Positions 5,981 through 45,000 of a DNA stretch of 45,000 nucleotides are shown piece by piece. Numbering within the stretch: position 1 is the stretch's first letter; each line of letters opens with the position of its first letter. The position numbers and the translations under genes were made by a program. The DNA is taken from contig NC_087080.1 of assembly GCF_026151205.1 (NCBI RefSeq), positions 269,812 to 314,811 of the forward strand, given 5' to 3'. Below the pieces are notes generated by a model. It made no database searches. It saw only the letters and a list, made by a program, of their open reading frames with translations, and was not told the DNA's origin. This DNA is from Bolinopsis microptera. Lineage: Eukaryota > Ctenophora > Tentaculata > Lobata > Bolinopsidae.

Positions 5981-6607
5981 GGGCTACTGGGTAGCTGGGT
6001 AGCTGGGTAGCTGGGTAGCTGGGTAGCCGGGTAGCTTGGTAGCTGGGTAGCTGGGTAGCTGGGTAGCTGGGTAGCTGGGTAGCTGGGTAGCTGGGTAGCT
6101 GGGTAGCCGGGTAGCTGGGTAGCTGGGTAGATGGGTAGCCGGGTAGCTGGGTAGTTGGGTAGCTGGTTAGCTAGGTAGCCGGGTAGCTGAGTAGCTGGGT
6201 AGCTGGGTAGCTGGGTAGCTGGGTAGCTGGGTAGCTGGGTAGCCGGGTAGCTGGGTAGCTGGGTAGCTGGGTAGCTGGGTAGCTGGGTAGCTGGGTAGCT
6301 GGGTAGCTGGGTAGCTGGGTAGCTGGGTAGCTGGGTAGCCGGGTAGCTGAGTAGCTGGGTAGCTGGGTAGCCGGGTAGCTGTGTAGCTGGGTAGCTGGGT
6401 AGTTGGGTAGCTGGGTAGTTGGGTAAATGGGTAGCTGGGTAAATGGGTAGCTGGGTAGCTGGGTAGCCGGGTAGCTGGGTAGCCGGATAGCTGGGTAGCT
6501 GGGTAGCTGGGTAGCTGGGTAGCTGGGTAGCCGGGTAGCCGGGTAGCTGGGTAGCCGGGTAGCCGGGTAGCTGGGTAGCTGGGTAGCTGGGTAGCTGCGT
6601 AGCTGGG
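5981..6607. repeat. 8-bp minisatellite, GGGTAGCT unit (block 2)
   Basis: Same unit and same orientation as the block at 2948. It ends exactly at the 5' edge of a hAT element, whose flanking 8-bp duplication TAGCTGGG (6600-6607 and 7887-7894) is itself a permuted repeat unit. Blocks 2 and 3 were therefore one array before the insertion. Confidence 0.97.
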
Positions 6608-7886: not shown

Positions 7887-9714
7887 TAGCTGGGTAGCTG
7901 GGTAGCTGGGTAGCTGGGTAGCCGGGTAGCCGGGTAGCTGGGTAGCTGGGTAGCTGGGTAGCTGGGTAGCCGGGTAGCTGGGTAGTTGGGTAGCTGGGTA
8001 GCTAGGTAGCTGGGTAGCTGAGTAGCTGGGTAGCTAGGTAGCCGGGTAGCCGGGTAGCTGGGTAGCTGAGTAGCTGGGTAGCTGGGTAGTTGGGTAGCTG
8101 GGTAGCTGGGTAGCTGGGTAGCTGGGTAGCTGGGTAGCTGGGTAGCTGGGTAGCTGGGTAGCTGGGTAGCTGGGTAGCCGGGTAGCTGGGTAGCTGGGTA
8201 GCTGGGTAGCTGGGTAGCTGGGTAGCTGGGTAGCCGGGTAGCTGGGTAGCTGGGTAGCTGGGTAGCTGGGTAGGTGGGTAGCCGGGTAGCTGGGTAGCTG
8301 GGTAGCTAGGTAGCTGGGTAGCTGGGTAGCTGGGTAGCTGGGTAGCTGGGTAGCTGGGTAGCTGGGTAGCTGGGTAGCCGGGTAGCTGGGTAGGTGGGTA
8401 GCCGGGTAGCTGGGTAGCTGGGTAGCTGGGTAGCTGGGTAGTTGGGTAGCTGGGTAGCCGGGTAGCTGGGTAGCTGGGTAGCCGGGTAGCTGGGTAGCCG
8501 GGTAGCTGGGTAGGTGGGTAGCCGGGTAGCTGGGTAGCTGGGTAGCTGGGTAGCTGGGTAGCTGGGTAGCTGGGTAGCCGGGTAGCTGGGTAGGTGGGTA
8601 GCCGGGTAGCTGGGTAGCTGGGTAGCTGGGTAGCTGGGTAGCTGGGTAGCTGGGTAGCTGGGTAGCTGGGTAGCTGGGTAGCTGGGTAGCTGGGTAGCCG
8701 GGTAGCTGGGTAGCCGGGTAGGTGGGTAGCCGGGTAGCTGGGAAGCTGGGTAGCTGGGTAGCTGGGTAGCTGGGTAGCTGGGTAGCCGGGTAGCCGGGTA
8801 GCTGGGTAGCTGGGTAGCCGGGTAGCTGGGTAGCTGGGTAGTTGGGTAGCTGGGTAGCTGGGTAGCTGGGTAGCTGGGTAGCTGGGTAGCTGGGTAGCCG
8901 GGTAGCTGGGTAGCTGGGTAGCTGGGTAGCTGAGTAGCTGGGTAGCCGGGTAGCCGGGTAGCTGGGTAGCCGGGTAGCTGGGTAGCTGGGTAGCTGGGTA
9001 GCCGGGTAGCTGGGTAGCTGGGTAGCTTGGTAGCTGGGTAGCTGGGTAGCTGGGTAGCTGGGTAGCAGGGTAGCTGGGTAGCTGGGTAGCTGGGTAGCTG
9101 GGTAGCCGGGTAGCTGGGTAGCTCGGTAGCCGGGTAGCTGGGTAGCTGGGTAGCTGTGTAGCTGGGTAGCTGGGTAGCCGGGTAGCTGGGTAGCTGGGTA
9201 GCTGGGTAGCCGGGTAGCTTGGTAGCTGGGTAGCCGGGTAGCCGGGTAGCTGGGTAGCTGGGTAGCTGGGTAGCTGGGTAGCTGGGTAGCTGGGTAGCTG
9301 GGTAGCTGGGTAGCTGGGTAGCTGGGTAGCTGGGTAGTTGGGTAGCTGGGTAGCTGGGTAGCTGGGTAGCTGGGTAGCTGGGTAGCTGGGTAGCTGGGTA
9401 GCTGGGTAGCTGGGTAGCTGGGTAGCTGGGTAGTTGGGTAGCCGGGTAGCCGGGTAGCTGGGTAGCTGGGTAGCCGGGTAGCTGGGTAGCTGGGTAGCTG
9501 GGTAGCTGGGTAGCTGGGTAGCTGGGTAGCTGGGTAGCTGGGTAGCTGGGTAGCTAGGTAGCTGGGTAGCTGGGTAGCCGGGTAGCCGGGTAGCTGGGTA
9601 GCCGGGTAGCTGGGTAGCTGGGTAGCTGGGTAGCTGGGTAGCTGGGTAGCTGGGTAGCTGGGTAGCTGGGTAGCCGGGTAGCTGGGTAGCTGGGTAGCTG
9701 GGTAGCTGGGTAGC
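7887..9714. repeat. 8-bp minisatellite, GGGTAGCT unit (block 3)
   Basis: About 228 copies, continuing block 2 in phase after the hAT insertion. Common variants are GCCGGGTA and a GGTGGGTA type that recurs at intervals (about 8275, 8395, 8515, 8595, 8725), pointing to local amplification of larger sub-blocks. Two very long minus-strand frames here (more than 560 codons of LPSYPATQ repeats) are repeat translations only. Confidence 0.97.
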
Positions 9715-12740: not shown

Positions 12741-13309
12741 GTACAAGCGGGTCAGATGGAGGGAGAAGACGGAGAGCAGCTGACCTACACTGAACATCTG
12801 ATGAAGCTAAAAGACTCGCTGAGCGAGGCACAGACAGCAAACCAACAAGCTAACCTGAAACTAGCGCACTCTCAGAGCACTATCAAGAAGATGGAGACTG
12901 ACTGCAGGAAGGCGGAGAGGGAAATAGCCCGGGAGAAGGGCGAGTTTGACACGGCTGTAACAGTTGTGGAAGGTGTGGAGAGGAGAATTGAGAAGCTTGG
13001 CTTCTCTCAAGAGGTGCATAGTGAGCTACAAAATGAGAAATGTGAACTAGAAAACAAGGTGGCTAAAGCTTCAAAACAGGTAAACGAGCTAGTGAACAAG
13101 TTCCCGCAACTCCAGTTCGACTACGTGTCCCCAGACAGGCACTTTGATAGGTCCCGTGTAAAGGGGCTGGTAGCTGATCTCTTCACTGTACCGGATAATC
13201 AGTACGCGATGGCTCTAGAGGTTGCCGCTGGGAGGAGGTTGTATAACGTGGTGACAGACAACGAGGACACCAGTGCTCTGCTCATCAAACACGGCCAACT
13301 CCGCAGAAG
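12741..13309 (+). CDS. SMC2: SMC2 exon d: coiled coil into hinge
   Basis: Opens in phase 0 with VQAGQMEGEDGEQLTYTEHL. It runs through coiled coil to the first half of the hinge dimerisation domain (KGLVADLF, GRRLYNVV) and ends at CGCAGAAG|GTACGT in phase 2. Confidence 0.85.
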
Positions 13310-13515
13310 GTACGTCATGATATTGTAACTAGTAGTGTAACTATGGTAACTAGCAGTGTAACTATGGTAACTAGTAGTAAATAAGTAGTGTAACTATGGT
13401 AACTAGTAGTGTAGCTATGGTAACTTGTAGTGTAACTATGGTAACTAGTAGTGTAACTATGGTAACTAGTAGTGTAACTATGGTAACTAGTAGTGTAACT
13501 ATGGTAACCCCGCAG
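13310..13515. repeat. SMC2 intron of 21-bp units bracketed by a duplicated junction
   Basis: The sequence AGGTACGTCATGATA at 13308-13322 is repeated at 13514-13528. The left copy is the donor (AAG|GTACGT) and the right copy is the acceptor plus exon start (GCAG|GTACGTCATGATA). Between them are about eight 21-bp units. Confidence 0.9.
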
Positions 13516-15016
13516 GTACGTCATGATACCCCTCAACAAGATCCGCAGCAATGTTATAGACAGGGAGGTGGTTAACAGCGCCAAGAGACTGGTCGGTGGT
13601 GACAACTGTCACCTAGCTCTGGATGTCATCCAGTTTGATAAACAGGTGGAACCGGCCATGAAGTTCTGTTTTGGAGGGGTTCTCATCTGTAAAACTAAGG
13701 AGCAAGCTAAGAAAGTAGCATTCGACAAGTCAGTGAAGAGGAAGGTTATTACTCTGGAGGGAGATGTATACGATCCGGCAGGTACTCTAACGGGAGGGTC
13801 CAGGAACACTTCTAGATGTGTTCTTAAAGAACTCTCTGCCTGCAAACAGTCCAGATCTGATCTCACTCAGTACAAAGAGCAGTACAGACAGGTAGAGGGA
13901 GAGTTGAGTAAAATGGAAAGAGTTGTCCACGAGTGGGAGGAACTGAAAGGTCAGCTGAGGCTGAAGAAGCACGAGCGTGATTTATTAGAAGAAAGATTGA
14001 AGCAGACCTCTCATTACAAGGACATAGAGGAGTTGAGGAGGACTAAGGAGGACCTGGCAAAGCAAAAGGAAATTGTGGATAATTTTAACGACAAAGAAAA
14101 GAGTCTCTTAAAGAAGTGCGCGGAAGTGGAAGCTAAGATGAAGAACTTCAAATCTGAACAAGAGAAAGAACTGAAGAAGTCGGAGAAGAGGATATTAGAC
14201 GCAAAGAGTAAATTAAACAAGTGTTCGAAGGAGGCGAAAGCAAAGGTGAACAAGTTGAAAGAACTAGAGTTGGAGGTGAGCAGTGAGCTAGCTAAGGAGC
14301 TGGAGGGTCTGCGAGAGCAGCTGCCTAAGTGCGAGGAGGCTATAGCTGCTGCTCAGGAGCTTGTGGAGGGAGCCCAGTTAAAGCTGACTGAGTGCGCGGC
14401 GGTGAGGGAGGCACTGGCTGCTGAACTTGGGGCTCAGCGTGAACTGATACAACAGTGTTCTGCTGAGATAGAAAACTTTGTGAAGGAGCAGAAAGCAGCG
14501 GAGAAGCTGATAAGTAGCTGCGGGATAAAGCTGAAGGAGCTGACTCACAAGCTGAGTAAACTGAACAAGGAAGCGAGCGAAGCAAAGCAGCAGGTCCAGT
14601 ATTACCTCAACAACTATGAGTGGATTGCTTCTGAAAAACAGTACTTCGGACAGAAGGACACTGCCTACGACTTTGAGAAACAGGACCTGAAAGAAAGTGA
14701 TAAGAAGTTGGAGCGACTGAAGGCAAGTAAAGAGAAACTGTCCAAGAATGTGAACATGAGAGCAATGCACCTGCTAGGAGAAGCGGAGAAACGGTACATC
14801 GACCTGGTGAAAAGGAAGGACATTGTGACTAACGACAAGCACAAGATAAACAAGGTGATCAAGGAACTGGACGAGAAGAAGAACAGAGCAGTCAGGAGAG
14901 CCTGGGAGCAGGTGAACAAGGATTTCGGCTCTATATTCTCTACGCTGCTTCCTGGAGCGAGGGTTAAACTGCAGACTTTGGAGGGGAGACCTGTTACTGA
15001 TGGTTTAGAAGTCAAG
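13516..15016 (+). CDS. SMC2: SMC2 exon e: second hinge half, C-terminal coiled coil, start of C-terminal head
   Basis: The largest visible exon. It encodes YVMIPLNKI, FDKSVKRKVITLEGDVYDPA and GTLTGGSRN (hinge), about 300 residues of Glu/Lys-rich coiled coil, NVNMRAMHLL, then NKDFGSIFSTLLPGARVKL of the head. It ends at GTCAAG|GTAAGT (phase 0). The last 40 bases are the founder of the downstream 61-bp array. Confidence 0.9.
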
Positions 15017-16563
15017 GTAAGTGCTAATGTTTATATCTTTGGAGGGGAGACCTGTTACTGATGGTTTAGAAGTCAAGGTAAGTGCTAATGTTTATATCTT
15101 TGGAGGGGAGACCTGTTACTGATGGTTTAGAAGTCAAGGTAAGTGCTAATGTTTATATCTTTGGAGGGGAGACCTGTTACTGATGGTTTAGAAGTCAAGG
15201 TAAGTGCTAATGTTTATATCTTTGGAGGGGAGACCTGTTACTGATGGTTTAGAAGTCAAGGTAAGTGCTAATGTTTATATCTTTGGAGGGGAGACCTGTT
15301 ACTGACGGTTTAGAAGTCAAGGTAAGTGCTAATGTTTATATCTTTGGAGGGGAGACCTGTTACTGATGGTTTAGAAGTCAAGGTAAGTGCTAATGTTTAT
15401 ACCTTTGGAGGGGAGACCTGTTACTGATGGTTTAGAAGTCAAGGTAAGTGCTAATGCTTATATCTTTGGAGGGGGGACCTGTTACTAATGGTTTAGAAGT
15501 CAAGGTAAGTGCTAATGTTTATATCTTTGGAGGGGGGACCTGTTACTGATGGTTTAGAAGTCAAGGTAAGTGCTAATGTTTATATCTTTGGAGGGGGGAC
15601 CTGTTACTGATGGTTTAGAAGTCATGGTAAGTGCTAATGTTTATATCTTTGGAGGGGAGACCTGTTACTGATGGTTTAGAAGTCAAGGTAAGTGCTAATG
15701 TTTATATCTTTGGGAGGGAGACCTGTTACTGATGGTTTAGAAGTCAAGGTAAGTGCTAATGTTTATATCTTTGGAGGGGAGACCTGTTACTGATGGTTTA
15801 GAAGTCAAGGTAAGTGTTAATGTTTATATCTTTGGAGGGGAGACCTGTTACTGATGGTTTAGAAGTCAAGGTAAGTGCTAATGTTTATATCTTTGGAGGG
15901 GAGACCTGTTACTGATGGTTTAGAAGTCAAGGTAAGTGCTAATGTTTATATCTTTGGAGGGGAGACCTGTTACTGATGGTTTAGAAGTCAAGGTAAGTGC
16001 TAATGTTTATATCTTTGGAGGGGGGACCTGTTACTGATGGTTTAGAAGTCAAGGTAAGTGCTAATGTTTATATCTTTGGAGGGGAGACCTGTTACTGATG
16101 GTTTAGAAGTCAAGGTAAGTGCTAATGTTTATATCTTTGGAGGGGAGACCTGTTACTGATGGTTTAGAAGTCAAGGTAAGTGCTAATGTTTATATCTTTG
16201 GAGGGGAGACCTGTTACTGATGGTTTAGAAGTCAAGGTAAGTGCTAATGTTTATATCTTTGGAGGGGAGATCTGTTACTGATGGTTTAGAAGTCAAGGTA
16301 AGTGGTAATGTTTATATCTTTGGAGGGGAGACCTGTTACTGATGGTTTAGAAGTCAAGGTAAGTGCTAATGTTTATATCTTTGGAGGGGAGATCTGTTAC
16401 TGATGGTTTAGAAGTCAAGGTAAGTGGTAATGTTTATATCTTTGGAGGGGAGACCTGTTACTGATGGTTTAGAAGTCAAGGTACGTGCTAATGTTTATAT
16501 CTTTGGAGGGGAGACCTGTTACTGATGGTTTAGAAGTCAAGGTAAGTGCTCATGTTTATATCT
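15017..16563. repeat. 61-bp tandem array of exon end plus 5' splice site (~26 copies counting the exon itself)
   Basis: The period is exactly 61 bp (14977, 15038, 15099 ...). Each unit carries 40 bp of exon e (TTTGGAGGGGAGACCTG to AGAAGTCAAG) and 21 bp of intron beginning GTAAGTGCTAATG. Almost every copy keeps the near-perfect donor CAAG|GTAAGT. A few carry substitutions, such as GTACGT near 16482. Because 61 is not a multiple of three, reading into the array meets a stop in the second copy. Confidence 0.97.
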
Positions 16564-16647
16564 TTATATAGGTTATTATTGTTGCTAAGTAAACATATCT
16601 TACTTTGTAAACCTATACTACCTTACTTTAATAGTTTACAATTGCAG

Positions 16648-17736: not shown

Positions 17737-20700
17737 GTAGCAAGAGATTATTTATAATCTCAGGGAATAGTGATCGTGAAGGCAGTGAAGCCAATAACCT
17801 CTCCTATTCCAATGACCATAGTGCGTGATGAAGAATCACATCCTTTTCGAGGTGCTACTATTAAGCATTGTAATCTGTCCTGGGTGACTCCAGTATAAAC
17901 AGATGACGTGCAACAAAACACTATGGATCTAGACAGGCAAAGGTCGATAAAAAACCGGGTGCGAGATGCTGGCAACTTCTCCTCTCTAAAAGTTTGCTAC
18001 TGAAACATTACACACAAATCAAGGACGGTGTGCTTCTACCTCTGCAAGGTCGGGTGAGACCAGGATGACGGCAACTGGGCAAAGCCTCAGGGACCCCAGT
18101 GGCCTGATGAGAAGAGTGGTTGCTCGTCATAACAACAGAGTAATTAGTCAACAGATCGCTCATGTTGACACTGATTTCAGCAAGTCCAATCCTATCAACT
18201 ACAGCAAACACTCAATGTACTTTGGAACCTGGAATGTTTTATCTTTAGTCAGCTCATCTTCACAGCTTTATCAACTCAGTCAGAACATTGATCACTACAG
18301 TCTTGATATTTTGGGTATTACTGAAACTCATATGCCAGGATCTGGAAGTACACTTTTGGACAATGGTAGTCTACTTATTCATTCTGGTAGGGGAGATGGT
18401 ATCAAAAGGCAAGGGGTTGGCCTATGTCTTTCCAAAAAGGTCAGGAACTCCCTGATCTCTTATGTACCTACATCAGAGCGGGTCTTAACAGCTAGGTTAC
18501 ACGGCAAACACCTCAACATATCTGTTGTTGTAGCCTACGCTCCGACTGACGGTGCTGATGACGGAGAGAAAGATCGTTTTTACAACGTTGTATCAGACAC
18601 GTTTGGTGAACTACCCCGACATGATCTGAAACTGCTACTGGGTGACTTCAATGGAAAAGTTACTTCAAACAGATATGGATTCGAGGGAGTTATTGGTGGA
18701 GAATCTCTCCATAGTTCATCAAGCGACAATGGGACCAGGCTCATGGATTTCTGTGCAGCCAATCAACTTGTTATTGGTGGAACTCTGTTCCAGCATAGAG
18801 ACATCCATAAGGGTACATGGCGGTCTCCTAACGGGTTAACTGTGAATCAAATAGATCATATTTGTATTAGTGGACGATTCCAACATTCGCTACTCGATGT
18901 TAAGGTATGTCGTGGGGCTGACATTGGTTCAGATCACTATCTTGTTCGTGGACGGCTGCAAATCAAACTGCAGTCGGTAGCTAAGATCACTGCTAAAAGG
19001 CACGATGTGCCTGCTATCGAACATTTGCGAAACTCGTCTAAGGTTCAAGAGTACAACGTGGCTCTTCAGAACCGTTTTAATTGTCTGGCGAATGAGGTCA
19101 ACCTTGAGGACATGTGGGATAATTTCAAGCAGACAGTCACTGATGTCTCGATGGAAGTGCTTGGAAAGCGTCCCCGGAAGGTTAAAGAACAACACCTTTC
19201 GCAAACCTCTAAGAACTTGATAGAGCAACGGGGAATGTTCAAACGGAGGGATCCCACTTCAAACGTCAATAGATCAGCCTACTCTAAGCTTAATAAATTA
19301 GTTAAGAAAAGTTGTAAGATTGACGACAACAACTGGGCTACTAAAATAGCGACTGATCTAGAGGAGGCTTCTAAGAAAGGCCAGCAAAGGGAAGTTTGGG
19401 ATAAGATAAAGAAGATTTCTGGGAAAAAGAAGAAGAAAGTGGGTATGTCAGTTAGGGATAAGGATGGTCATTTTATTACAGACCCGGACAGTCAGAAGGA
19501 AAGGTGGAAGGAGCACTTTACTGAGCTCTTAAATCCTCCACTATCGGATGCCAATCTTGATGACCTCGATGGTGTGCCCTCACAACCGAGTTTTGACTAC
19601 CTTTCTTGTTTTGACGGACCTCCTTCTAGAGATGAGATTAGTTATGCTCTAAAGAAACTGAAGAACTGCAAAAGTGCAGGGGTTGATGAGATAACTAATG
19701 AACAACTTAAGTATGGTGGAAGTGCTCTTGTTGGCCAACTAGAGCTACTGTTTAAAAAGGTATGGGAGGAAGAGGTGATCCCTGAGGATTGGCTTAAAGG
19801 TGTTATAGTGGTTATCGGAAAGAAGGGAGACACCTCATACTGCTGCAATAATAGGGGTATAACTCTTAGGGCAACGTCTTCTAAGGTTCTTCAAATGGTT
19901 CTTCTTAAGAGGCTGGATGTTGGAATGGAGTGTCTTCTTAGGGAAAATCAGTGTGGGTTCAGACGGAACCGCTCATGTATTGATCAGATTTATTCCATCC
20001 GCACCATTATTCACAACTGCATTGAGTTTAACATTCCACTTTATGTTAATTTCATTGATTTTAAGGCAGCGTTTGATTCCATCAGAAGAGAGTTTATTTG
20101 GTCAAGCATGAGACACTATGGACTTCCTGAGAAATATGTTAGAATCTTTCAGGCATTCTTCAACGGAACCATGAGTGCTGTCAGGGTTAATGGTGAAATG
20201 TCTGATTGGTTCTCTGTTAATTCGGGCACTGGACAGGGTGATATCCAGGGCCCTCCTGTATTTAATTTTTGTCTGAACTTTGGAATCTTTTTGGCCGAGG
20301 TTCACAAAGCAATCAGTCATGGTGCTGTACTGCAAAAGGAACTAAAGGGTGCAGATGAAAAAGTTATCATGGACAGTGACTACGCTGATGATCTGGCAGT
20401 GATGGACAATACTGAAGAAGGGCTGCAAGAGTCCACTGATCTTATAGCTTATTACACCTCTTATGCTGGGTTGAAGATCAACGCTAAAAAGACACAATGC
20501 ATGGCGATCAGCAAGTGTGCGTCCCAGCGACCTTACACCGAAAGAGACAGTATAAAGCTAACAGTGGAGGGAGAACCTGTTGAACAGGTCAGCAACTTTG
20601 TTTATCTTGGTGCCAACATCAGTGGGGATGGTACCATTGACCGAGATCTTGACATCAGGATCCAGCGTGCTAATGGTGCGTTCCATCAGCTTTGGAAGAT

Positions 20701-21246
20701 ATGGAACAGTCGAACTATAAGAACGCCCACCAAGATCCGTATCTACAAGGCTGCTGTTATTACTATTCTGTTATATGGAGCCGAAGTGTGGAACACAACA
20801 AAGAAGCAGATGAAACGGTTTGAGGTCTTCCATCTGACCTCCCTGAGAAGAATCTTGAAGATAAAGTGGTTCTTCCATGTCTCCAATGAAGAAGTTCTCA
20901 GGCGTGCTGGAATTAAGTCTATCGAAACTTTCATCGGTGCGGCTAGACTAAGGTGGTACGGACATGTTGTCAGAATGCCAGAGACGCGGTTTCCCAATTT
21001 CTTACTGGATTGGAAACCAAACTATGGAAAGAGACTGAGAGGACGACCCCGCAAAGGCTGGATGGCCTGTGTACTCGAGGATGCGGCTGAATTTACAGGT
21101 GTCGATAACATCAGCAGAGATGCAGTAAAACAGTTGGCTCTAAAGCGAGTGGAATGGAGGAACATGTTACGCCGTAGAAGAGATGTGTGTGATGCAGGCC
21201 ACTCCAACGACTAGGAGGAGACCTCTTCATGTAGCATGTATGTATG
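17737..21246 (+). mobile_element. RTE-type non-LTR retrotransposon inserted in an SMC2 exon
   Basis: Everything between GTG (17736) and GACGCAGCG (21247) is foreign to SMC2. It consists of a 5' leader of about 330 bp, one long ORF, and a short 3' UTR ending in a small ATG/TGTA-type tail (CATGTATGTATG) rather than poly(A), as in RTE-clade elements. A target duplication longer than 1-2 bp is not evident. Confidence 0.85.
18065..21214 (+). CDS. RTE-clade endonuclease/reverse transcriptase, intact, 1049 aa
   Basis: The ATG at 18065 is the first in a frame with no stops. An APE-type endonuclease carries FGTWNVLSL near residue 52, a GITETH acidic motif near 93, LLLGDFNGK near 190, NQIDHI near 262 and GSDH near 287. 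The reverse transcriptase carries KKGDTSYCCNNRGITL (590-605), ENQCGFRRNRSC (628), NFIDFKAAFDSI near 660, GTGQGDIQGPPVFN and the catalytic YADD near 771. The C-terminus holds LLYGAEVW and RWYGHV motifs. The order and wording match RTE/BovB-type proteins, the same family as the craniofacial development protein 2-like entries. Full length with all catalytic residues, so potentially active and recently inserted. Confidence 0.93.
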   Translation: MTATGQSLRDPSGLMRRVVARHNNRVISQQIAHVDTDFSKSNPINYSKHSMYFGTWNVLSLVSSSSQLYQLSQNIDHYSLDILGITETHMPGSGSTLLDNGSLLIHSGRGDGIKRQGVGLCLSKKVRNSLISYVPTSERVLTARLHGKHLNISVVVAYAPTDGADDGEKDRFYNVVSDTFGELPRHDLKLLLGDFNGKVTSNRYGFEGVIGGESLHSSSSDNGTRLMDFCAANQLVIGGTLFQHRDIHKGTWRSPNGLTVNQIDHICISGRFQHSLLDVKVCRGADIGSDHYLVRGRLQIKLQSVAKITAKRHDVPAIEHLRNSSKVQEYNVALQNRFNCLANEVNLEDMWDNFKQTVTDVSMEVLGKRPRKVKEQHLSQTSKNLIEQRGMFKRRDPTSNVNRSAYSKLNKLVKKSCKIDDNNWATKIATDLEEASKKGQQREVWDKIKKISGKKKKKVGMSVRDKDGHFITDPDSQKERWKEHFTELLNPPLSDANLDDLDGVPSQPSFDYLSCFDGPPSRDEISYALKKLKNCKSAGVDEITNEQLKYGGSALVGQLELLFKKVWEEEVIPEDWLKGVIVVIGKKGDTSYCCNNRGITLRATSSKVLQMVLLKRLDVGMECLLRENQCGFRRNRSCIDQIYSIRTIIHNCIEFNIPLYVNFIDFKAAFDSIRREFIWSSMRHYGLPEKYVRIFQAFFNGTMSAVRVNGEMSDWFSVNSGTGQGDIQGPPVFNFCLNFGIFLAEVHKAISHGAVLQKELKGADEKVIMDSDYADDLAVMDNTEEGLQESTDLIAYYTSYAGLKINAKKTQCMAISKCASQRPYTERDSIKLTVEGEPVEQVSNFVYLGANISGDGTIDRDLDIRIQRANGAFHQLWKIWNSRTIRTPTKIRIYKAAVITILLYGAEVWNTTKKQMKRFEVFHLTSLRRILKIKWFFHVSNEEVLRRAGIKSIETFIGAARLRWYGHVVRMPETRFPNFLLDWKPNYGKRLRGRPRKGWMACVLEDAAEFTGVDNISRDAVKQLALKRVEWRNMLRRRRDVCDAGHSND

Positions 21247-21374: not shown

Positions 21375-23202
21375 GTAAATTGAATATCTTTATTGTGAAT
21401 ACTGGGCTCTGATTGGTTACTTTGTGTCACGTGGTGTGAGTACTGTGCTCTGATTGGTTAGTTTGTGTCACATGATGTGAGTACTGTGCTCTGATTGGTT
21501 ACTTTGTGTCACGTGGTGTGAGTACTGTGCTCTGATTGGTTAGTTTGTGTCACATGATGTGAGTACTGTGCTCTGATTGGTTACTTTGTGTCACGTGGTG
21601 TGAGTACTGCGCTCTGATTGGTTACTTTGTGTCACATGATGTGAGTACTGTGCTCTGATTGGTTACTTTGTGTCACTTGGTGTGATCTTCAGGTAAATTG
21701 AATATTTATATTGTGAATACTCTGCTCTGATTGGTTACTTTGTGTCACATGATGTGAGTACTGTGCTCTGATTGGTTACTTTGTGTCACATGATGTGAGT
21801 ACTGTGCTCTGATTGGTTACTTTGTGTCACGTGGTGTGAGTACTGTGCTCTGATTGGTTACTTTGTGTCACGTGGTGTGAGTACTGACTACTGTGCTCTG
21901 ATTGGTTACTTTGTGTTACATGATGTGAGTACTGTGCTCTGATTGGTTACTTTGTGTCACATGATGTGAGTACTGTGCTCTGATTGGTTACTTTGTGTCA
22001 CATGATGTGAGTACTGTGCTCTGATTGGTTAGTTTGTGTCACGTGGTGTGAGTACTGTGCTCTGATTGGTTACTTTGTGTCACATGATGTGAGTACTGTG
22101 CTCTGATTGGTTACTTTGTGTCACATGATGTGAGTACTGTGCTCTGATTGGTTACTTTGTGTCACATGATGTGAGTACTGTGCTCTGATTGGTTACTTTG
22201 TGTCACGTGGTGTGAGTACTGTGCTCTGATTGGTTACTTTGTGTCACATGATGTGAGTACTGTGCTCTGATTGGTTACTTTGTGTCACGTGGTGTGAGTA
22301 CTGTGCTCTGATTGGTTACTTTGTGTCACGTGGTGTGAATACTGTGCTCTGATTGGTTAGTTTGTGTCACGTGGTGTGAGTACTGTGTTCTGATTGGTTA
22401 CTTTGTGTCACGTGGTGTGAGTACTGTGCTCTGATTGGTTACTTTGTGTCACGTGGTGTGAGTACTGTGCTCTGATTGGTTACTTTGTGTCACGTGGTGT
22501 GAGTACTGTGCTCTGATTGGTTAGTTTGTGTCACTTCGTGTGAGTACTGTGCTCTGATTGGTTAGTTTGTGTCACGTGGTGTGAGTACTGTGCTCTGATT
22601 GGTTACTTTGTGTCACGTGGTGTGAATACTGTGCTCTGATTGGTTACTTTGTGTCACGTGGTGTGAATACTGTGCTCTGATTGGTTACTTTGTGTCACGT
22701 GGTGTGAATACTGTGCTCTGATTGGTTACTTTGTGTCACGTGGTGTGAATACTGTGCTCTGATTGGTTACTTTGTGTCACGTGGTGTGAGTACTGTGCTC
22801 TGATTGGTTACTTTGTGTCACGTGGTGTGAGTACTGTGCTCTGATTGGTTAGTTTGTGTCACGTGGTGTGAGTACTGTGCTCTGATTGGTTAGTTTGTGT
22901 CACGTGGTGTGAGTACTGTGCTCTGATTGGTTAGTTTGTGTCACGTGGTGTGAGTACTGTGCTCTGATTGGTTAGTTTGTGTCACGTGGTGTGAGTACTG
23001 TGCTCTGATTGGTTAGTTTGTGTCACGTGGTGTGAGTACTGTGCTCTGATTGGTTACTTTGTGTCACGTGGTGTGAATACTGTGCTCTGATTGGTTACTT
23101 TGTGTCACGTGGTGTGAATACAGTGCGCTGATTGGTTACTTTGTGTCACGTGGTGTGAATACTGGGCTCTGATTGGTTATAATAAGACCCTCATCATATC
23201 AG
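21375..23202. repeat. 41-bp minisatellite filling the last SMC2 intron (~43 copies)
   Basis: The unit contains CTCTGATTGGTTACTTTGTG followed by TCACGTGGTGTGAGTACTGTG. Two unit types alternate irregularly (TCACGTGGTG and TCACATGATG). Each has an inverted CCAAT box (ATTGG), and most have a CACGTG E-box. The exon end/donor sequence CTTCAGGTAAATTGAATAT from 21370 recurs inside the array at about 21687. Confidence 0.97.
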
Positions 23203-34540: not shown

Positions 34541-37512
34541 CCAGAGGTAATGCTAACACTGCAACAAGTAGTGTATACATTACCCAGAAGTAATGCTAAC
34601 ACTGCAACAAGTAGTGTATACATTACCCAGAAGTAATGATAACACTGCAACAAGTAGTGTATACATTACCCAGAAGTAGTGCTAACACTGCAACAAGTAG
34701 TGTATACATTACCCAGAAGTAATGCTAACACTGCAACAAGTAGTGTATACATTACCCAGAAGTAATGCTAACGCTGCAACAAGTAGTGTATACATTACCC
34801 AGAAGTAATGCTAACACTGCAACAAGTAGTGTATACATTACCCAGAAGTAATGCTAACACTGCAACAAGTAGTGTATACATTACCCAGAAGTAATGCTAA
34901 CACTGCAACAAGTAGTGTATACATTACCCAGAAGTAATGCTAACACTGCAACAAGTAGTGTATACATTACCCAGAAGTAGTGCTAACACTGCAACAAGTA
35001 GTGTATACATTACCCAGAAGTAATGCTAACACTGCAACAAGTAGTGTATACATTACCCAGAAGTAGTGCTAACACTGCAACAAGTAGTGTATACATTACC
35101 CAGAAGTAATGCTAACACTGCAACAAGTAGTGTGTACATTACCCAGAAGTAATACTAACACTGCAACAAGTAGTGTATACATTACCCAGAAGTAATGCTA
35201 ACACTGCAACAAGTAGTGTATACATTACCCAGAAGTAATGCTAACACTGCAACAAGTAGTGTAAACATTACCCAGAAGTAATGCTAACACAGCAACAAGT
35301 AGTGTATACATTACCCAGAAGTAGTGCTAACACTGCAACAAGTAGTGTTTACATTACCCAGAAGTAGTGCTAACACTGCAACAAGTAGTGTATACATTAC
35401 CCAGAAGTAATGCTAACACAGCAACAAGTAGTGTATACATTACCCAGAAGTAATGCTAACACAGCAACAAGTAGTGTATACATTACCCAGAAGTAATGCT
35501 AACACTGCAACAAGTAGTGTATACATTACCCAGAAGTAATGCTAACACTGCAACAAGTAGTGTATACATTACCCAGAAGTAATGCTAACACTGCAACAAG
35601 TAGTGTATACATTACCCAGAAGTAGTGCTAACACTGCAACAAGTAGTGTATACATTACCCAGAAGTAATGCTAACACAGCAACAAGTAGTGTATACATTA
35701 CCCAGAAGTAATGCTAACACAGCAACAAGTAGTGTATACATTACCCAGAAGTAATGCTAACACTGTAACAAGTAGTGTATACATTACCCAGAAGTAATGC
35801 TAACACTGCAACAAGTAGTGTTTACATTACCCAGAAGTAGTGCTAACACTGCAACAAGTAGTGTATACATTACCCAGAAGTAATGCTAACACTGCAACAA
35901 GTAGTGTTTACATTACCCAGAAGTAGTGCTAACACTGCAACAAGTAGTGTATACATTACCCAGAAGTAGTGCTAACACTGCAACAAGTAGTGTATACATT
36001 ACCCAGAAGTAATGCTAACACAGCAACAAGTAGTGTATACATTACCCAGAAGTAATGCTAACACTGCAACAAGTAGTGTAAACATTACCCAGAAGTAATG
36101 CTAACACTGCAACAAGTAGTGAATACATTACCCAGAAGTAATGCTAACACTGCAACAAGTAGTGTATACATTACCCAGAAGTAATGCTAACACTGCAACA
36201 AGTAGTGTATACATTACCCAGAAGTAATGCTAACACTGCAACTAGTAGTGTATACATTACCCAGAAGTAATGCTAACACTGCAACAAGTAGTGTATACAT
36301 TACCCAGTAGTAATGCTAACACAGCAACAAGTAGTGTATACATTACCCAGAAGTAATGCTAACACTGCAACAAGTAGTGTATACATTACCCAGAAGTAAT
36401 ACTAACACCGCAACAAGTAGTGTATACATTACCCAGAAGTAATGCTAACACTGCAACAAGTAGTGTATACATTACCCAGAAGTATTGCTAACACTGCAAC
36501 AAGTAGTGTATACCTTACCCAGAAGTATTGCTAACACTGCAACAAGTAGTGTATACATTACCCAGAAGTAGTGCTAACACTGCAACAAGTAGTGTATACA
36601 TTACCCAGAAGTAATGCTAACACTGCAACAAGTAGTGTATACATTACCCAGAAGTAATGCTAACACTGCAACAAGTAGTGTATACATTACCCAGAAGTAA
36701 TGCTAACACTGCAACAAGTAGTGTATACATTACCCAGAAGTAATGCTAACACTGCAACAAGTAGTGTATACATTACCCAGAAGTAGTGCTAACACTGCAA
36801 CAAGTAGTGTATACATTACCCAGAAGTAATGCTAACACTGCAACAAGTAGTGTATACATTACCCAGAAGTAATGCTAACACTGCAACAAGTAGTGTATAC
36901 ATTACCCAGAAGTAATGCTAACACTACAACAAGTAGTGTATACATTACCCAGAAGTAATGCTAACACTGCAACAAGTAGCGTATACATTACCCAGAAGTA
37001 GTGCTAACACTGCAACAAGTAGTGTATACATTACCCAGAAGTAATGCTAACACTGCAACAAGTAGTGTATACATTACCCAGAAGTAGTGCTAACACTGCA
37101 ACAAGTAGTGTTTACATTACCCAGAAGTAGTGCTAACACTGCAACAAGTAGTGTATACATTACCCAGAAGTAGTGCTAACACTGCAACAAGTAGTGTATA
37201 CATTACCCAGAAGTAATGCTAACACTGCAACAAGTAGTGTATACATTACCCAGAAGTAATGCTAACACTGCAACAAGTAGTGTATACATTACCCAGAAGT
37301 AATGCTAACACTGCAACAAGTAGTGTATACATTACCCAGAAGTAGTGCTAACACTGCAACAAGTAGTGTATACATTACCCAGAAGTAATGCTAACACTGC
37401 AACAAGTAGTGTATACATTACCCAGAAGTAGTGCTAACACTGCAACAAGTAGTGTATACATTACCCAGAAGTAATGCTAACATTGCAACAAGTAGTGTAT
37501 ACATTACCCAGT
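34541..37512. repeat. 43-bp satellite-like array, ~69 copies
   Basis: The unit is AGAAGTAATGCTAACACTGC followed by AACAAGTAGTGTATACATTACCC. Copies are highly uniform, with a few recurring variants (AGTAGTGC, GTGTTTAC, ACAGCAAC), suggesting recent homogenisation. No spacers differ between units, so it is not a CRISPR-like structure. Confidence 0.97.
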
Positions 37513-39272: not shown

Positions 39273-42200
39273 CTAAACTGCTGAATTAACAATATCTTGT
39301 CCTGTTTCTATGGTAACAATATCTTGTCCGACAGGCTGATACTTTGTTTGTCCTGATGTTGAATTCCTCCTGTTTCTATGGTAACAGTTCCTCAGTTCCG
39401 CAACTTTTCTAGTTACCCAGCCGTGTTTTGGGGGTGTCTTAACCCCGTTGATGTGGAAATTAGAGTGTTTCTCATCGTACAGCACAATAGTAGTGTCAGG
39501 AAGGTTTGATGCGTTATTATTGTAAGGGTTCAAGTACACTGCAAGTCTTTCTTTTTCTGTTATCCACTTCTCAATATCCTTTATACATTGAGCTGAACCC
39601 CATTTTCCATAGTGGTATTTAGTAAGAATCTCAGTGGGAGCTGTTTCACACCAGGCAAGAACCTTATTTTCCCATTGCTGCTCTTTTAATGAAAAGTATT
39701 CTTCGCAGAGGTTACTGATCTGTTCAACCAGCTCATCATTGAGAATGTCACATTCAGTCGCATCAGTGTACTTGTTTTCTATTCTAACTTTCAGTTTGTT
39801 GCACGCTGGTACGAGATTAGGACTCAACTCATCGTCCCTGATATCTTCAATACTGCGGAACACATTTGAACCAATCGCTCTACACCTCGAGATAAGCAGC
39901 TTGGGGTCCACTTTTTCAATGTTCTCAATACCAGGAAATGATTCTAACAGATGAAGATGAATATTGTCGTACTTTCTCACTTTAGTAATGAGCAAATCCA
40001 CGTCCTTACGACGCAACTGAAGATTCTCAGCAAGATTCTCAGCATCACTAATTGAGGGCGAGAGTCTCCTGTAACTGCTATTAAATGGTCGAGTAAAACA
40101 GTTTCTAAAATTCTTCAGAAAACTTGATCGTGAGCAGCAATTGCTCTGACTAACAGGTTTATCTTTATCTGTGTGTTCCCTACCCAACATGCAGTCATAA
40201 CAGGGATCTAGAACTTGGAGTCTGTAACTATACTGATTGGATGAGTAGACTTTTGTGCTGTTTATCTTTGTTGCTTTTTCAGTTACATGACAAAATTGAT
40301 GTGTTTTCAGGACCTGGGATTTATATCCAAACTGCTTCAACCTGGGGTTGATTGAAACCGACAATAATTTAGATGTCTTGTCTGGATTAAGAACTGTAAA
40401 GTACAGCATATACATTGCACCAGATATGAGAAATAGTGCCAACGATACATACACCAAATCCATTATCCATCGTTTAGAGTTGAGAGTGTTTGCTAAAACC
40501 GTGACAGTTATCACTTCTAACAGGTGAAACACATAAATCAAGAAGAATTGTCGACTTGATCTCAGATGATAAGTGCTTGGAACACTTCCTGACACCAGAT
40601 CTATAGGATGTCGGAGGCTCACTATAAAGGATTCACTCCATGATAGACAGAACACTAGTGCGCAGCGTCCAATCACAACAAGTTTACTGTTTCTGTTACT
40701 GCCTTCTTTCAGAATAAAATCCTTTATCACAAATTTTCTTTTTACCATCGAAAAGTCATAAGGAGACTGCCACTCGTGATGAGATAGTAAGTGAGTAGCA
40801 GAAGATAACAATATGTGAAGCAATACACTGATGTTAAAAATCCACATAGTTTCATTATCACGCATCACGCTGAATAGAACAAGGCACATGATGAGTCGTG
40901 AATTAAGTGAGAGCAATACTCCTATGAACGACACTAGTTTCTGACATGTCGTGAGGGCTCCAGGAGAAATGTCTGCACTCCTGCACAACTCTTCAAAACT
41001 TGCTACTTTATAGCAGAGTGTTAGTATACCATATACAGTTGACAATAGGGTAACAATTTCATCCGATCCCAAACTAAAATCAACATTACTTTTGTTGTTG
41101 TCGATAAATTTATACAAAATGATACCCTTGATAAGAGTGCAGGGCACATTCTCTAGGATCTTCTCTTGAGTGGAGACTCTTCCAAAATGAAATTTATTAG
41201 TTATGATTGTACTCAGCAATTTACTCCGATGAAACACCAGCTCAAAAGCTGTTATGAGGGGATGCAGCTGTAATACTGTTAAAATGTTCAAGATGGTGTG
41301 TTTTACGCTGTCAAACCTCCAAGGACAAAATAACTTCATTATTCGTCCTCTGTTTGATCCCTGTAAAGATATCACAGGATCAACAGTTATTATGCTCCAG
41401 CATTGAATGTAATACCGTAAAACAGATTGATAATTTAAATAAATCAAAGGTAAAATACTAAATAAAAGTAAACAATAACCCTCATACCGTGTGCTTAAAG
41501 TAGCATCATTAACAGCGTTCAACCCTACTTTAATGTCTAAAACAATGTCTACAATATATAGAGCAAAAAATTTCAAGATATTTAATATAAACAGTGTGTT
41601 GACCAAAACACAGTTATGTCGCTTTTCTCCACAACTTAAGTACGTATTTATCAACTCTGCAGCAAGTCTAGATAACTCACTGTCAGTGTCTAACTCGGCG
41701 ATTTCCTTCAAAGAATGTGTGTGTGGAACTAACAATGCAGCAACTTTAGCAGGGTGGTTGCATGTGAGTTTGGTGACAATAAACCGTAATATCATGATTT
41801 TGTACTCAGAAGATAACACATCAGATCTGATCCGGGAGATACACGTGTCTATGAGTTGTTTGGTGGAGAAGTGCTCATGTAAAGCCATGCTCCCTTGTAA
41901 CATGTTATCAATACAACGAATAGTGCTCTCCAGTACCTTCACATTACTGCTTGTTTGGAAAATATTTGTCACTAGTTCGGGTATATCTCCGTACTCTGTA
42001 CTGTTAGCTATTAACTCACAGATATCCACCCTATTACAGATACTGTTCTGTAAAGTTACAAGTAACGTAACCATCACAGTGTCATCTTCACTCCACTTCT
42101 GTAGTAGTTTAGATATAAGGGTTAGTACTCCCTCCCCAACAAGGTGGTCAACATGTGAGAGATCACCGTTATCGTATGCAACGTAACATAGAGTCTCTGA

Positions 42201-44117
42201 TATATTGCACATAACCTCACTGTCAGTGCAAAGTTCCCATGTTGTTATCAAATGTTTCATTACACCACTTTTAACCAGTGAGCTTCTTACAGCTGTATCT
42301 CCTAGATCAGCTACTCTACTTAGCACATATGTCAGGTTTCTACGATACACCTCCTCAGTATTACTGTCGTACTGTTCAATAAACTTGTTGATAAATTCAG
42401 CTGAAACAACCTCTCTGATTACTTGTTTTTCAAATTCTTCTTCTCTACCAGGTATCGCTTTTATGTTACTAGCTAGCTTTACAATACCGCCCTCAGTGAA
42501 CATTTCATTTGTAGGTGGTATTAACAGTTGTAATAGCTCACTTTCCTCAATACTGCCCAGGTATTTATTTAACAGTATCGCAGCATTTACTCTTAACACA
42601 CTATCACTCCCCGTCTTGGCTAATTCTTTCAGTGGTTGAGAGTAAGGAATCAGAAGATCTTTCATTTTATCAGTATTCGTGTTTGCTAATGTACATATTA
42701 TACCACACAGCAGGCACTGCTTACTATCACTGTTTAGTGTAGTTGATTGCAGGTGTCGGAAAGCTGTGGTAAAGAAGCTTGCGTGTAGAAACACTGTGTG
42801 AAGTACATCAATCCCCAGTACTAAAATCCTGATCACCTTAATAGTCTGCACAATAACACTGTCACTGGAAGCTGTTTCTAATAACTCTTGTAGGAGTAGT
42901 GGTATATTTCCGTACTCTGTACTGTTAGCTATTGACACACTGATATCCTTCCTATTACAGGTAATGTTCTGTAAAGTTCCAAGTAACTTAACCATCACAG
43001 TGTCATCTTCACTCCACTTCTGTAGTAGTTTAGATATAATGGTTAGAGCTCCCTCCTCAACAAGGTGGTCAACATGTGAGAGATCACCTTTATCGTGTGC
43101 AATGTTCTGTAGAGTAACTGATATATTGAACATAACCTCACTGTCAGTGCAATGTTCCCATGTTGTTATTAAATGTTTCATTACACCACCTTTAACCAGT
43201 GAGCTTATTACAGCTGTATCTCCTAGATAAGCTACTGTTGCCATCACATATGTCAGGTTTCTACGATACACCTCCTCGGTATTACTGTCGTACTGTTTAA
43301 CAAACTTGCTGATAAAGCTAGCTGAAACAACCTCTCTGATTACTTGTTTTCCAAATTCTTCTTCTTCATCAGGTATCGCTTTTATGTTACTAGCTAGCTT
43401 TACAATACCGCCCTCAGTGAACATTTCATTTGTCGGTGGTAATGACAGTTGTAATAGCTCACTTTCCTCAATACTACCCAGGTATTTATTTAACAGTATC
43501 GCAGCAGTTACTTTACAACTTGTGTCCGAACTTATTATTTCTCTAAGAAGTTGATGTTTATTTCTCAGTATATCAACCAATCTAGGCTGGTTTAATGAAA
43601 CAATATCTTCACCTAGTGACATCTCATAAGAACATATCGTGTAGATCAAGGAAAGTATTCTCTCAGCTATATCATCGTTACTTTTCCAGGTCTCCAGCAG
43701 GTATATCACTTTATCATAAAGACCCTCCTCAGCAATGTCTGACAAAAGAACCCTGTTATGTTTGGAACATACATCTCTTAAGACTGTCACTACGTTTGTT
43801 ATGAGATCTGCATCTGTTGAGTGAACACAGTCTGTAAGGATGAGCCTCACTATACCTCTATGAACTAGCTCCTTTAAATCTTCCTTATCACCGAAGTATC
43901 CGACCCTTCTCAAAATGAAAGTTGCATCCCTCCTAAATTGCAACTCCTCATTACTCTTATACAAATCAACAACCACACTGTAAAACTCAGTTTGTTTCAG
44001 CTTCTTTACCACATCTGGGCATACTGTGTCGTTCTTATCATCAGGAACTGAGCGAAGTTTGGTAGCGAGAGAAGATATTTCCTCTTTTGTACCAAGTTTA
44101 CTATTTATAGTAATCAT
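39273..44117 (-). CDS. armadillo/HEAT-like repeat protein fused to an XK-related (XKR) scramblase-like membrane region, 1614 aa
   Basis: One intronless frame. Residues 1-834 are helical repeats of ARM/HEAT type (VMFNISVTLQNIAH, HVDHLVEEGALTIISKLLQ), with a ~308-residue block duplicated (about 204-410 and 512-717, very similar). Residues about 835-1245 hold roughly ten hydrophobic segments. Their landmarks follow the XK family: YIVDIVLDIKVGL, LFSILPLIYLNY, LQLHPLITAFEL, EKILENVPCTLIKGIILY (family: E-x-x-P-Q-x-x-L-Q), LLSTVYGILTLCYK and NSRLIMCLVLFSV. XKR proteins are plasma-membrane phospholipid scramblases. Here the usual PQ/Q of the fifth landmark is P-C-T-L-I-K. The tail (1246-1614) is hydrophilic and unrecognised. 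The ATG at 44117 is the first in frame after a TAA. An upstream exon joining at TTTCAG (44183) is possible, since the frame continues 22 codons 5'. Family assignment is by motif order only. Confidence 0.65.
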   Translation of the reverse strand: MITINSKLGTKEEISSLATKLRSVPDDKNDTVCPDVVKKLKQTEFYSVVVDLYKSNEELQFRRDATFILRRVGYFGDKEDLKELVHRGIVRLILTDCVHSTDADLITNVVTVLRDVCSKHNRVLLSDIAEEGLYDKVIYLLETWKSNDDIAERILSLIYTICSYEMSLGEDIVSLNQPRLVDILRNKHQLLREIISSDTSCKVTAAILLNKYLGSIEESELLQLSLPPTNEMFTEGGIVKLASNIKAIPDEEEEFGKQVIREVVSASFISKFVKQYDSNTEEVYRRNLTYVMATVAYLGDTAVISSLVKGGVMKHLITTWEHCTDSEVMFNISVTLQNIAHDKGDLSHVDHLVEEGALTIISKLLQKWSEDDTVMVKLLGTLQNITCNRKDISVSIANSTEYGNIPLLLQELLETASSDSVIVQTIKVIRILVLGIDVLHTVFLHASFFTTAFRHLQSTTLNSDSKQCLLCGIICTLANTNTDKMKDLLIPYSQPLKELAKTGSDSVLRVNAAILLNKYLGSIEESELLQLLIPPTNEMFTEGGIVKLASNIKAIPGREEEFEKQVIREVVSAEFINKFIEQYDSNTEEVYRRNLTYVLSRVADLGDTAVRSSLVKSGVMKHLITTWELCTDSEVMCNISETLCYVAYDNGDLSHVDHLVGEGVLTLISKLLQKWSEDDTVMVTLLVTLQNSICNRVDICELIANSTEYGDIPELVTNIFQTSSNVKVLESTIRCIDNMLQGSMALHEHFSTKQLIDTCISRIRSDVLSSEYKIMILRFIVTKLTCNHPAKVAALLVPHTHSLKEIAELDTDSELSRLAAELINTYLSCGEKRHNCVLVNTLFILNILKFFALYIVDIVLDIKVGLNAVNDATLSTRYEGYCLLLFSILPLIYLNYQSVLRYYIQCWSIITVDPVISLQGSNRGRIMKLFCPWRFDSVKHTILNILTVLQLHPLITAFELVFHRSKLLSTIITNKFHFGRVSTQEKILENVPCTLIKGIILYKFIDNNKSNVDFSLGSDEIVTLLSTVYGILTLCYKVASFEELCRSADISPGALTTCQKLVSFIGVLLSLNSRLIMCLVLFSVMRDNETMWIFNISVLLHILLSSATHLLSHHEWQSPYDFSMVKRKFVIKDFILKEGSNRNSKLVVIGRCALVFCLSWSESFIVSLRHPIDLVSGSVPSTYHLRSSRQFFLIYVFHLLEVITVTVLANTLNSKRWIMDLVYVSLALFLISGAMYMLYFTVLNPDKTSKLLSVSINPRLKQFGYKSQVLKTHQFCHVTEKATKINSTKVYSSNQYSYRLQVLDPCYDCMLGREHTDKDKPVSQSNCCSRSSFLKNFRNCFTRPFNSSYRRLSPSISDAENLAENLQLRRKDVDLLITKVRKYDNIHLHLLESFPGIENIEKVDPKLLISRCRAIGSNVFRSIEDIRDDELSPNLVPACNKLKVRIENKYTDATECDILNDELVEQISNLCEEYFSLKEQQWENKVLAWCETAPTEILTKYHYGKWGSAQCIKDIEKWITEKERLAVYLNPYNNNASNLPDTTIVLYDEKHSNFHINGVKTPPKHGWVTRKVAELRNCYHRNRRNSTSGQTKYQPVGQDIVTIETGQDIVNSAV

Positions 44118-45000
44118 CTTACCTGGTTCTTGCTCTGGATTGTCTATTCTTATCAGACTGTTCTTATCTTCGACTGAAATGTATTATAAAAAGTTTTCAC
44201 ATTTATAAGATTAGAAATGCGCCAGTCGACAGCTTTACTCGAAGATATTTAAAATCAGTTATGTTTTAATTTCTCTTCATTTAGCTCCGCACTGTAGAAA
44301 GTGTGGATGTTATTTGACAATTGACAATGACAACAAAGTTTCAAGTTTTTTCTAAGCGATACTTTTCACCACATCAAAAATATAGATCACATTAACCAAA
44401 GTTATGAAAAGTCATACTCATAGCATGGGCGTAAAACGGAGCTACCTTATCGGATTTTGTTTGAGCGGACATAAATTGGACGCCGGAGGCCCAAGCGTTT
44501 TTTCTCGTCGATAAAGGGCGACTTAAGTTGTCGTAATTTATTAATCATCTTAAGAATATTGCTTTGACAGAGCAAATTGGCACAGAATGCAAGTTTTATA
44601 ATTCTGTTTCTTTAGAGAAAGAATGGATAGCAGCGTTGTGTTTACACTATCTGTTATTTAGAACTTTGGTATATCTATAAGTATATAATATTTTAAACTC
44701 GAAAAAACATTGTATCACGTGGTGACCCCCACGGTCGTTTCACTATAGTCTTCGTGCGCGGCGGGTCATACAACGTATGACAAAAAAAACACTGATAATT
44801 TAAAGGTTAACTACGTCGTTGCGTAGCAACATCAAGAGATTACACGTGCGCGAGCAACCACAGTACAACACAGGTTAGCAACGCGCGTCGCTGTGTTTTA
44901 TAACCTGCCTCATAAGTGCGTCATAACTACGTCATAACTAGCTCACATTACAATTACGCTATGACTATCCATAACTTTGGTTGTGATTGATGTTTTTTGA
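44118..45000. promoter_or_regulatory. probable upstream region of the ARM-XKR gene
   Basis: No gene recognised. Just upstream of the ATG the minus strand has a CCAG|GTAAGA donor-like site overlapping the frame. Further out, 44745-44930 is relatively CpG-rich for this window (CGCGCG, CACGTG, CACGTGCGCG) and holds two TACGTCA/GCGTCA-type CRE-like sites at 44917-44935. Promoter role is inference from position and composition. Confidence 0.35.

Follow-up and report, generated by a model that had tools for sequence, protein, structure and literature searches.

The window analysed here is a stretch of 45,000 nucleotides of Bolinopsis microptera DNA (C9:269812-314811). Its longest reading frame is an uninterrupted ORF of 1,614 codons on the minus strand, counted from the candidate start ATG and without an internal stop, and the same frame extends 22 codons 5' of this ATG without a stop to give 1,636 codons (Table 1). 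The 1,614-aa protein is laid out as an armadillo (ARM) solenoid at residues ~1-825, a hydrophobic domain at ~834-1245, and then a tail. By hydropathy (19-residue mean > 1.4), only residues 290-308 and 418-450 stand out before residue 834, from which a run of hydrophobic segments continues to 1245. The initial annotation had described a frame that passes from ARM repeats into a membrane domain without a stop, with parts of 830, 410 and 370 residues; the open passage is confirmed over the 1,614 codons, and frame and hydropathy place these boundaries about right. It had also called the gene a single exon, a term that is best read as a statement about the frame, which is indeed uninterrupted. At 44117-44183, a donor-like CAG/GTAAG adjoins the ATG, with an acceptor-like TTTCAG ~56 bases 5' of it, and the residues that immediately precede the ATG are found again in L025, L026 and L027.

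Table 1. Positions of the features of the ARM-XKR frame in the window.
Feature	Residues	Position	Strand	Remarks
Whole ORF: ARM solenoid, XKR-like membrane domain and tail		39273..44117	-	One frame
N-terminal ARM unit	1-207	43497..44117	-	Helical rhythm in the model; alignable in L026, L018, L017
Complete 307-residue ARM supermodule	208-514	42576..43496	-	Self-diagonal of 307
H3 of repeat a	282-298	43224..43274	-	Variable contacts 293, 294, 297; 287 and 290 invariant
H3 of repeat b	326-341	43095..43142	-	Variable contacts 334, 337, 338, 341; 331 invariant
H3 of repeat c	372-388	42954..43004	-	Variable contacts 377, 380, 383, 384; 387 less so
H3 of repeat d	419-434	42816..42863	-	Variable 424, 427, 431, 434; 430 invariant
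Second, incomplete supermodule and C-terminal ARM unit	515-819	41661..42575	-	Anchor motifs repeat at +307
Predicted XK/XKR-homologous membrane domain	820-1260 (hydrophobic part 834-1245)	40338..41660	-	Hydropathy, homology
DxxxD in first membrane helix	D857, D861 (= Xkr8 D26, D30)	41535..41549	-	Conserved in 8/8
Path-helix stretch, PQ...Q replaced by PC...K	E985, E989 (= Xkr8 E137, E141), P992-C993, K997	41127..41165	-	HMM alignment
C-terminal tail	1261-1614	39276..40337	-	Cys-containing block, then region alignable to L018 and L020

The ARM part follows a plan of an N-unit, 307-residue supermodules and a C-unit; the self-diagonal of 307 reaches 92% identity over its best 60 residues, and residues 565-823 are homologous to residues 71-336 of the paralog L020. 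The C-terminal tail matched no Pfam family, and the D..D string that occurs in it once (residue 1425) has no weight as proof of caspase or kinase control. Residues 1261-1330 (40128-40337) form a conserved block after the last helix with the elements C-H/D-V, I-N and Y-R-L-Q...C..C, which is common to L018 and L020 and has a short similarity even in L021.

Elsewhere in the window, two LINE-type frames that encode endonuclease and reverse transcriptase domains lie on the plus strand at 3-2894 and 18065-21214. Two further plus-strand frames (12756-15061) split one SMC hinge domain (profile positions 2-51 and 59-116) and are probably exons of one gene. A 61-base array of 26 copies (14976-16565) begins at the end of these frames, and large tandem arrays are present at 2948-3599, 5987-6607, 7886-9714, 21394-23179 and 34541-37511, with units of the 8-base GGGTAGCT type three times, of 41 bases (x 44) and of 43 bases (x 69).

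The N-terminal half was assigned to the armadillo fold from sequence and fold taken together, because repeat proteins may reach ~Z 13 in VIA-align through their common arrangement alone. When the whole protein was compared with the PDB by phmmer (E up to 1), four sequences were matched, all of them designed armadillo proteins, with the best at E 3.2e-8 over window residues 255-436. An AlphaFold single-sequence model of residues 1-839, of moderate confidence (pLDDT 59.5), is all helical with an H1-H2-H3 rhythm, and with Foldseek and VIA-align it matched designed armadillo proteins, importin-alpha, beta-catenin and HEAT karyopherins, the top VIA-align row being the designed armadillo protein 4v3r (Z 16.5, 272 residues, rmsd 4.4), which was nearly tied by many others, importin-alpha among them. 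The Pfam Arm models did not match the window protein at E 10, and a Pfam scan of the whole protein gave no row above its cut-off, the best being a cohesin HEAT model (E 0.0097; score 16.3 bits, cut-off 25); the paralog L020 matched Arm_3 at E 0.044, also under the cut-off. The phmmer match, the model helices and the fold match thus point to H1-H2-H3 repeats stacked in a solenoid, and bear out the earlier description of this half as ARM/HEAT-like.

The relation of the membrane half to the XK/XKR proteins is seen through relatives and by profile-profile comparison. PF09815 did not match the window protein at E 10, whether the whole protein or residues 820-1260 were used, and the curated Pfam score was not reached. 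It did match one of the eight aligned membrane domains of the subfamily (E 3.1e-18, 60.8 bits, profile positions 6-337), namely that of L021/L009 at C9:3902148-3903263, which is 28% identical to the window's. A tblastn search with window residues 820-1260 recovered L021 (1.4e-40), L011 (5e-21) and L016 (8.6e-10), and a PF09815 search of the genome gave 15 places, 14 of them above the cut-off, with 60.8 bits for L021, 34.8 for L011, 29.9 for L016 and 28.7 for L022. With hmmscan (PF09815 cut-off 24.8), the L009 frame scored 63.8 bits, L011 (23.9) and L022 (18.0) fell below, and nothing was found for the second gene of L021, L018 or L020.

A profile built from six ARM-fused domains, with L021 left out, of which the hhalign filter retained four, aligned to four XKR proteins of the genome at 100% (E 5.5e-44, 412 columns), compared with 0.08% for the reversed control. 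The ARM-fused profile also aligned to the single XKR proteins L011 (99.91%), L016 (99.77%) and L022 (98.04%), while L012, another PF09815 place in the genome, gave no alignment (0.33%); profile A3 aligned to A2 at 100% over 390 columns. Against the PDB, the mixed profile A4 (ten sequences) matched XKR4 (3.6e-5), 7p14 (0.011), a designed helical protein (0.23) and Xkr8 (1.8); 7p14 is an XK-related protein, which we take to be Xkr9. Profile A1 (the ARM-fused domains and L021) had no PDB match at E 1, L021 by itself had none with phmmer at E 10, and the direct comparison of the window protein with the PDB gave no XKR match. As to the eight membrane helices and two half-membrane helices of XKR proteins, the colinear profile alignment spans the domain; the single-sequence model of this part (pLDDT 38) is unusable for the fold. 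The other Pfam rows obtained for the eight domains were weak (Sid-5 0.0021, HAAS_TM 0.0036, YjeJ 0.031), and Sid-5 and HAAS_TM remained under their cut-offs with the longer proteins. Significant homology over the whole membrane domain, by way of L021, the hhalign comparison and the XKR4 match, therefore leads us to regard the domain as almost certainly homologous to XK/XKR, as the initial annotation had proposed. On sequence grounds it is classed as a divergent XK/XKR homologue with a new architecture, and not as a PF09815 member by the Pfam cut-off.

The union of the two halves recurs in divergent paralogs. The ARM and membrane parts stand in one continuous frame also in L026, L018, L020 and L017, whose membrane domains are 93%, 49%, 36% and 52% identical to that of the window, respectively, and in these four and the window copy the frame is open across the ARM-to-membrane junction, where the alignment has no gap. 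In L018 and L020 an alignable tail follows in the same frame, and in L017 the tail runs on in a different frame. Since the junction is ungapped in five members, we are highly confident that the predicted ARM-XKR fusion, put forward earlier from the window alone, is real at the gene level.

Individual residues of the membrane domain were placed in register by an HMM alignment to Xkr8 (7dce). Six residues, D26, D30, K/R134, E137, E141 and R183, are described as essential for scrambling in the Xkr8 study (PMC8500837). The window protein retains four of the six, which are the acidic ones of the lipid path; the equivalents of D26, D30 and E141 are kept in all eight aligned domains and that of E137 in seven. 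R214 also has an equivalent, R1074, kept in 8 of 8. The basic residues are not conserved in place in this HMM register: the R134 position is S982 in the window and varies, with K in one of the eight domains, and the R183 position is E1043 and varies, with K in three. An R or K is found in all eight domains two residues before the R134 position (R980 in the window), and again at the R186 position (R1046, three residues from the R183 position). A PQ motif in the path helix is a feature of XKR proteins and is visible in XKR4 and Xkr8. It reads PC in all eight domains, and K997, four residues on, is a lysine in all eight, so that the absence of the PQ/Q pattern remarked on in the initial annotation is a property of the whole set and PC...K is a subfamily signature. 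Because it is invariant across the subfamily, the change from PQ is not a random loss; it does mean that activity may differ or be lost.

Based on this architecture, we propose a tentative reading in which a recognition solenoid gates an XKR-type scramblase. According to the Xkr8 work (PMC8500837), this protein crosses the membrane with eight helices, and its C-terminal helix is cytoplasmic and bears a caspase site. Caspases or kinases switch it through its tail, and it has a separate chain, basigin, as its partner. The window protein would belong, as a membrane protein, to a divergent XK/XKR subfamily, with its N-terminus turned into a long armadillo solenoid. If Xkr8 is a guide, both termini would be cytosolic, and if this topology is conserved, so would be the ARM solenoid. 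The acidic path of D857, D861, E985 and E989 would, by the same analogy, carry lipid head groups. The concave ARM groove may bind a protein or an extended peptide, and such binding could switch or position the scramblase core, a role that in Xkr8 falls to a separate partner or a cleavable tail. Topology, scrambling, ligand binding and gating are thus steps that we infer. We lean slightly towards a predicted scrambling activity and, given scrambling, consider control by an ARM ligand likely; the tentative standing of the whole corresponds roughly to the product of the odds for homology, fusion, scrambling and control, all of which are judgements.

The residues of the lipid path also bear on a different and rather unlikely explanation, in which the domain is an XKR-type membrane anchor without scramblase activity that holds the ARM scaffold at the membrane for docking or trafficking. 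The alteration of the R134 and R183 equivalents and of the PQ motif across the subfamily is in line with an anchor, as is the new invariant K997 in the stretch bearing the path glutamates, but seven or eight of eight divergent domains retain the four acidic positions and the R214 equivalent, which is beyond what an anchor would need.

A search of the genome (264.65 Mb) with the whole protein found at least 43 matching places (29 of 51 candidates were scored), with recent copies on the contigs C9, C2 and C13. A degenerate DNA pattern for a silicatein active-site string, taken as a pointer to demosponges, had no match. The number of ARM modules varies between copies: two module anchors were counted in the window copy, one in L026, two in L002, and three each in L005, L006, L007 and L028. 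L005 and L006 were cut from a single locus, overlap, and have two anchors in common, so that this locus has four, and L007 is a cut region with at least three. A paralog on C4 (L017:1002-5705, plus strand) has 89-residue tandem ARM repeats instead of the 307-residue modules, and several of these units are 97-100% alike over their best 60 residues. On C11, L022:1266-6374 (minus strand; C11:12077000-12083500) holds a frame of 1,703 codons in which an XKR-like domain comes after many ankyrin repeats (Ank_2 1.4e-88), and L024:1269-2675 (plus strand) contains a near-identical copy of its XKR part. Judged by its sequence, L022 shows that this genome has another type of solenoid-XKR fusion.

Variation among the ARM modules is not evenly spread. 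We take the ligand-contact positions of an ARM repeat to be 30, 33, 36, 37 and 40, in a register that comes from the phmmer alignment to a designed ARM protein and is independent of the variation. From 17 half-modules that were cut, two same-DNA duplicates (from the L005/L006 overlap) and two frameshifted ones were dropped. In the remaining 13, over three repeats, mean entropy was 1.25 bits at contact positions compared with 0.32 elsewhere (permutation p 1e-5; 3e-5 within helix H3), and among 21 slides of the register the unshifted one was highest, followed by +3 at 1.17. In the second half of the module, with the register set by eye from the model helices and the partly out-of-frame row L028_1639 dropped (n=8), the helix of the fourth repeat followed the same trend (p 1.2e-4); p was 0.008 when two helices were included and 0.033 with three, and the final two H3 helices were not hypervariable. 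Within this sample, variation is clearly concentrated at the ARM ligand-contact positions, which fits control of the putative scramblase by protein binding. The permutation p is not a test of selection, because the copies are related and may exchange sequence.

By parsimony, the 15 contact positions underwent 56 amino-acid and 9 silent changes (dN/dS 1.76), and the other 159 positions 144 and 45 (dN/dS 0.92); the excess at contacts was not significant (p 0.07; Fisher test against the rest, p 0.06), and silent changes were also denser there (0.60 vs 0.28 per codon). With the Nei-Gojobori method, dN/dS among three recent copies was 0.48, 0.55 and 0.72 for the membrane domain and 0.49, 0.49 and 0.78 for the tail, and for the last ARM block of three recent pairs it was 1.38, 1.06 and 1.00, with about four silent changes in each pair. 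In comparisons of older members, the last ARM block gave 0.21-0.31 in the computable pairs, and the membrane domains of L017 and L018 gave 0.165 (dS 1.7, near saturation). The first 150 residues ranged from 0.23 to 1.68 in ten pairs.

These patterns could suggest a special case of the solenoid-gated scramblase, namely a diversifying family of multi-copy intracellular receptors whose ARM modules would detect foreign or self ligands, whose groove would diversify by gain and loss of modules and by substitution at contacts, and whose XKR effector would expose phosphatidylserine. We consider this unlikely. Variable module number, recent copies on three contigs, the focus of variation on contact positions and the ankyrin-XKR fusion in the same genome would all suit such receptors, as would the higher ratios of the last ARM block (1.0-1.4) compared with those of the membrane domain and tail (0.48-0.78). 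However, positive selection at the contacts is not significant, the ARM-block ratios depend on about four silent changes per pair, the first 150 residues span low and high ratios alike, gene conversion may shape the differences between modules, and all evidence comes from one genome. If true, the family would represent an animal recognition system with cell-surface lipid exposure as its output. Pattern scans of viral and prokaryotic contigs, in which 62 and 39 stretches matched and none was confirmed, have no bearing on animals.

It is less probable still that this is a young, decaying family of repeat genes under relaxed constraint, whose copy in the window may not be functional. Several recent copies are indeed broken, with stops or frameshifts in L002, L008, L006 and the ARM part of L028, and the membrane-domain ratios among recent copies would agree with relaxed constraint. 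Nevertheless, the window copy is intact over all its codons and L026 over 1,312, the older paralogs L018 and L020 have no breaks, L017 is open through the ARM part and membrane domain, and the L017-L018 comparison indicates strong purifying selection. That two genes or exons have been read as one, and no fusion protein exists, is highly improbable, as the splice-like signals just 5' of the ATG have against them an uninterrupted frame and a junction without gaps in five members, the most distant only 36% identical in the membrane domain.

In the literature covered, which was partial and included few subscription papers, no work on XKR proteins fused to ARM or ankyrin repeats was found; protein databases may hold predictions of such fusions without comment. 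A relative of the scramblases that carries a recognition solenoid itself would suggest that the XKR fold can be gated directly by protein binding, and the recurrence of ARM-XKR in divergent paralogs, together with an ankyrin version in the same genome, adds to this suggestion. It would bring ligand, gating and scrambling within one chain, where all three can be tested at once.

Among known systems, the armadillo proteins (importin-alpha, beta-catenin and designed ARM proteins) have in common with the window protein the H1-H2-H3 repeats, the sequence match to designed ARM and the fold match, whereas the window protein is without a Pfam Arm match and varies between modules at its contact positions. 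In designed ARM proteins, by contrast, the groove has a conserved asparagine ladder (PMC6838082). Within the same genome, the L021/L009 XKR proteins (C9:3893500-3903900) have a membrane domain 27-28% identical to the window's and share PC...K and an H-x-C block before helix 1, but their N-terminal regions (at least 293 and at least 465 residues) show no detectable relation to the ARM part (hhalign 0.07-0.41%). The ankyrin-XKR protein L022 resembles the window protein in having a long repeat solenoid and then an XKR-like domain in one open frame, and differs in that its repeats are ankyrin and not ARM, its motif is PE...Q, and its repeat part does not align with that of the window protein (hhalign 0.10%). 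Neither these N-terminal regions nor the ankyrin part thus showed homology to the ARM part with hhalign. The earlier statement that XKR proteins carry no such repeat domain must be qualified to allow for this ankyrin-XKR fusion. With the XK-related scramblases (Xkr8-basigin, XKR4; PF09815), the window protein has in common a homologous membrane domain that is colinear with theirs, the DxxxD of helix 1, the E...E of the path helix and the R214 equivalent; in contrast to them, it has PC...K for PQ, does not conserve R134 and R183 in place, has no direct PF09815 match, and adds an N-terminal ARM solenoid of ~825 residues and a tail of ~350.
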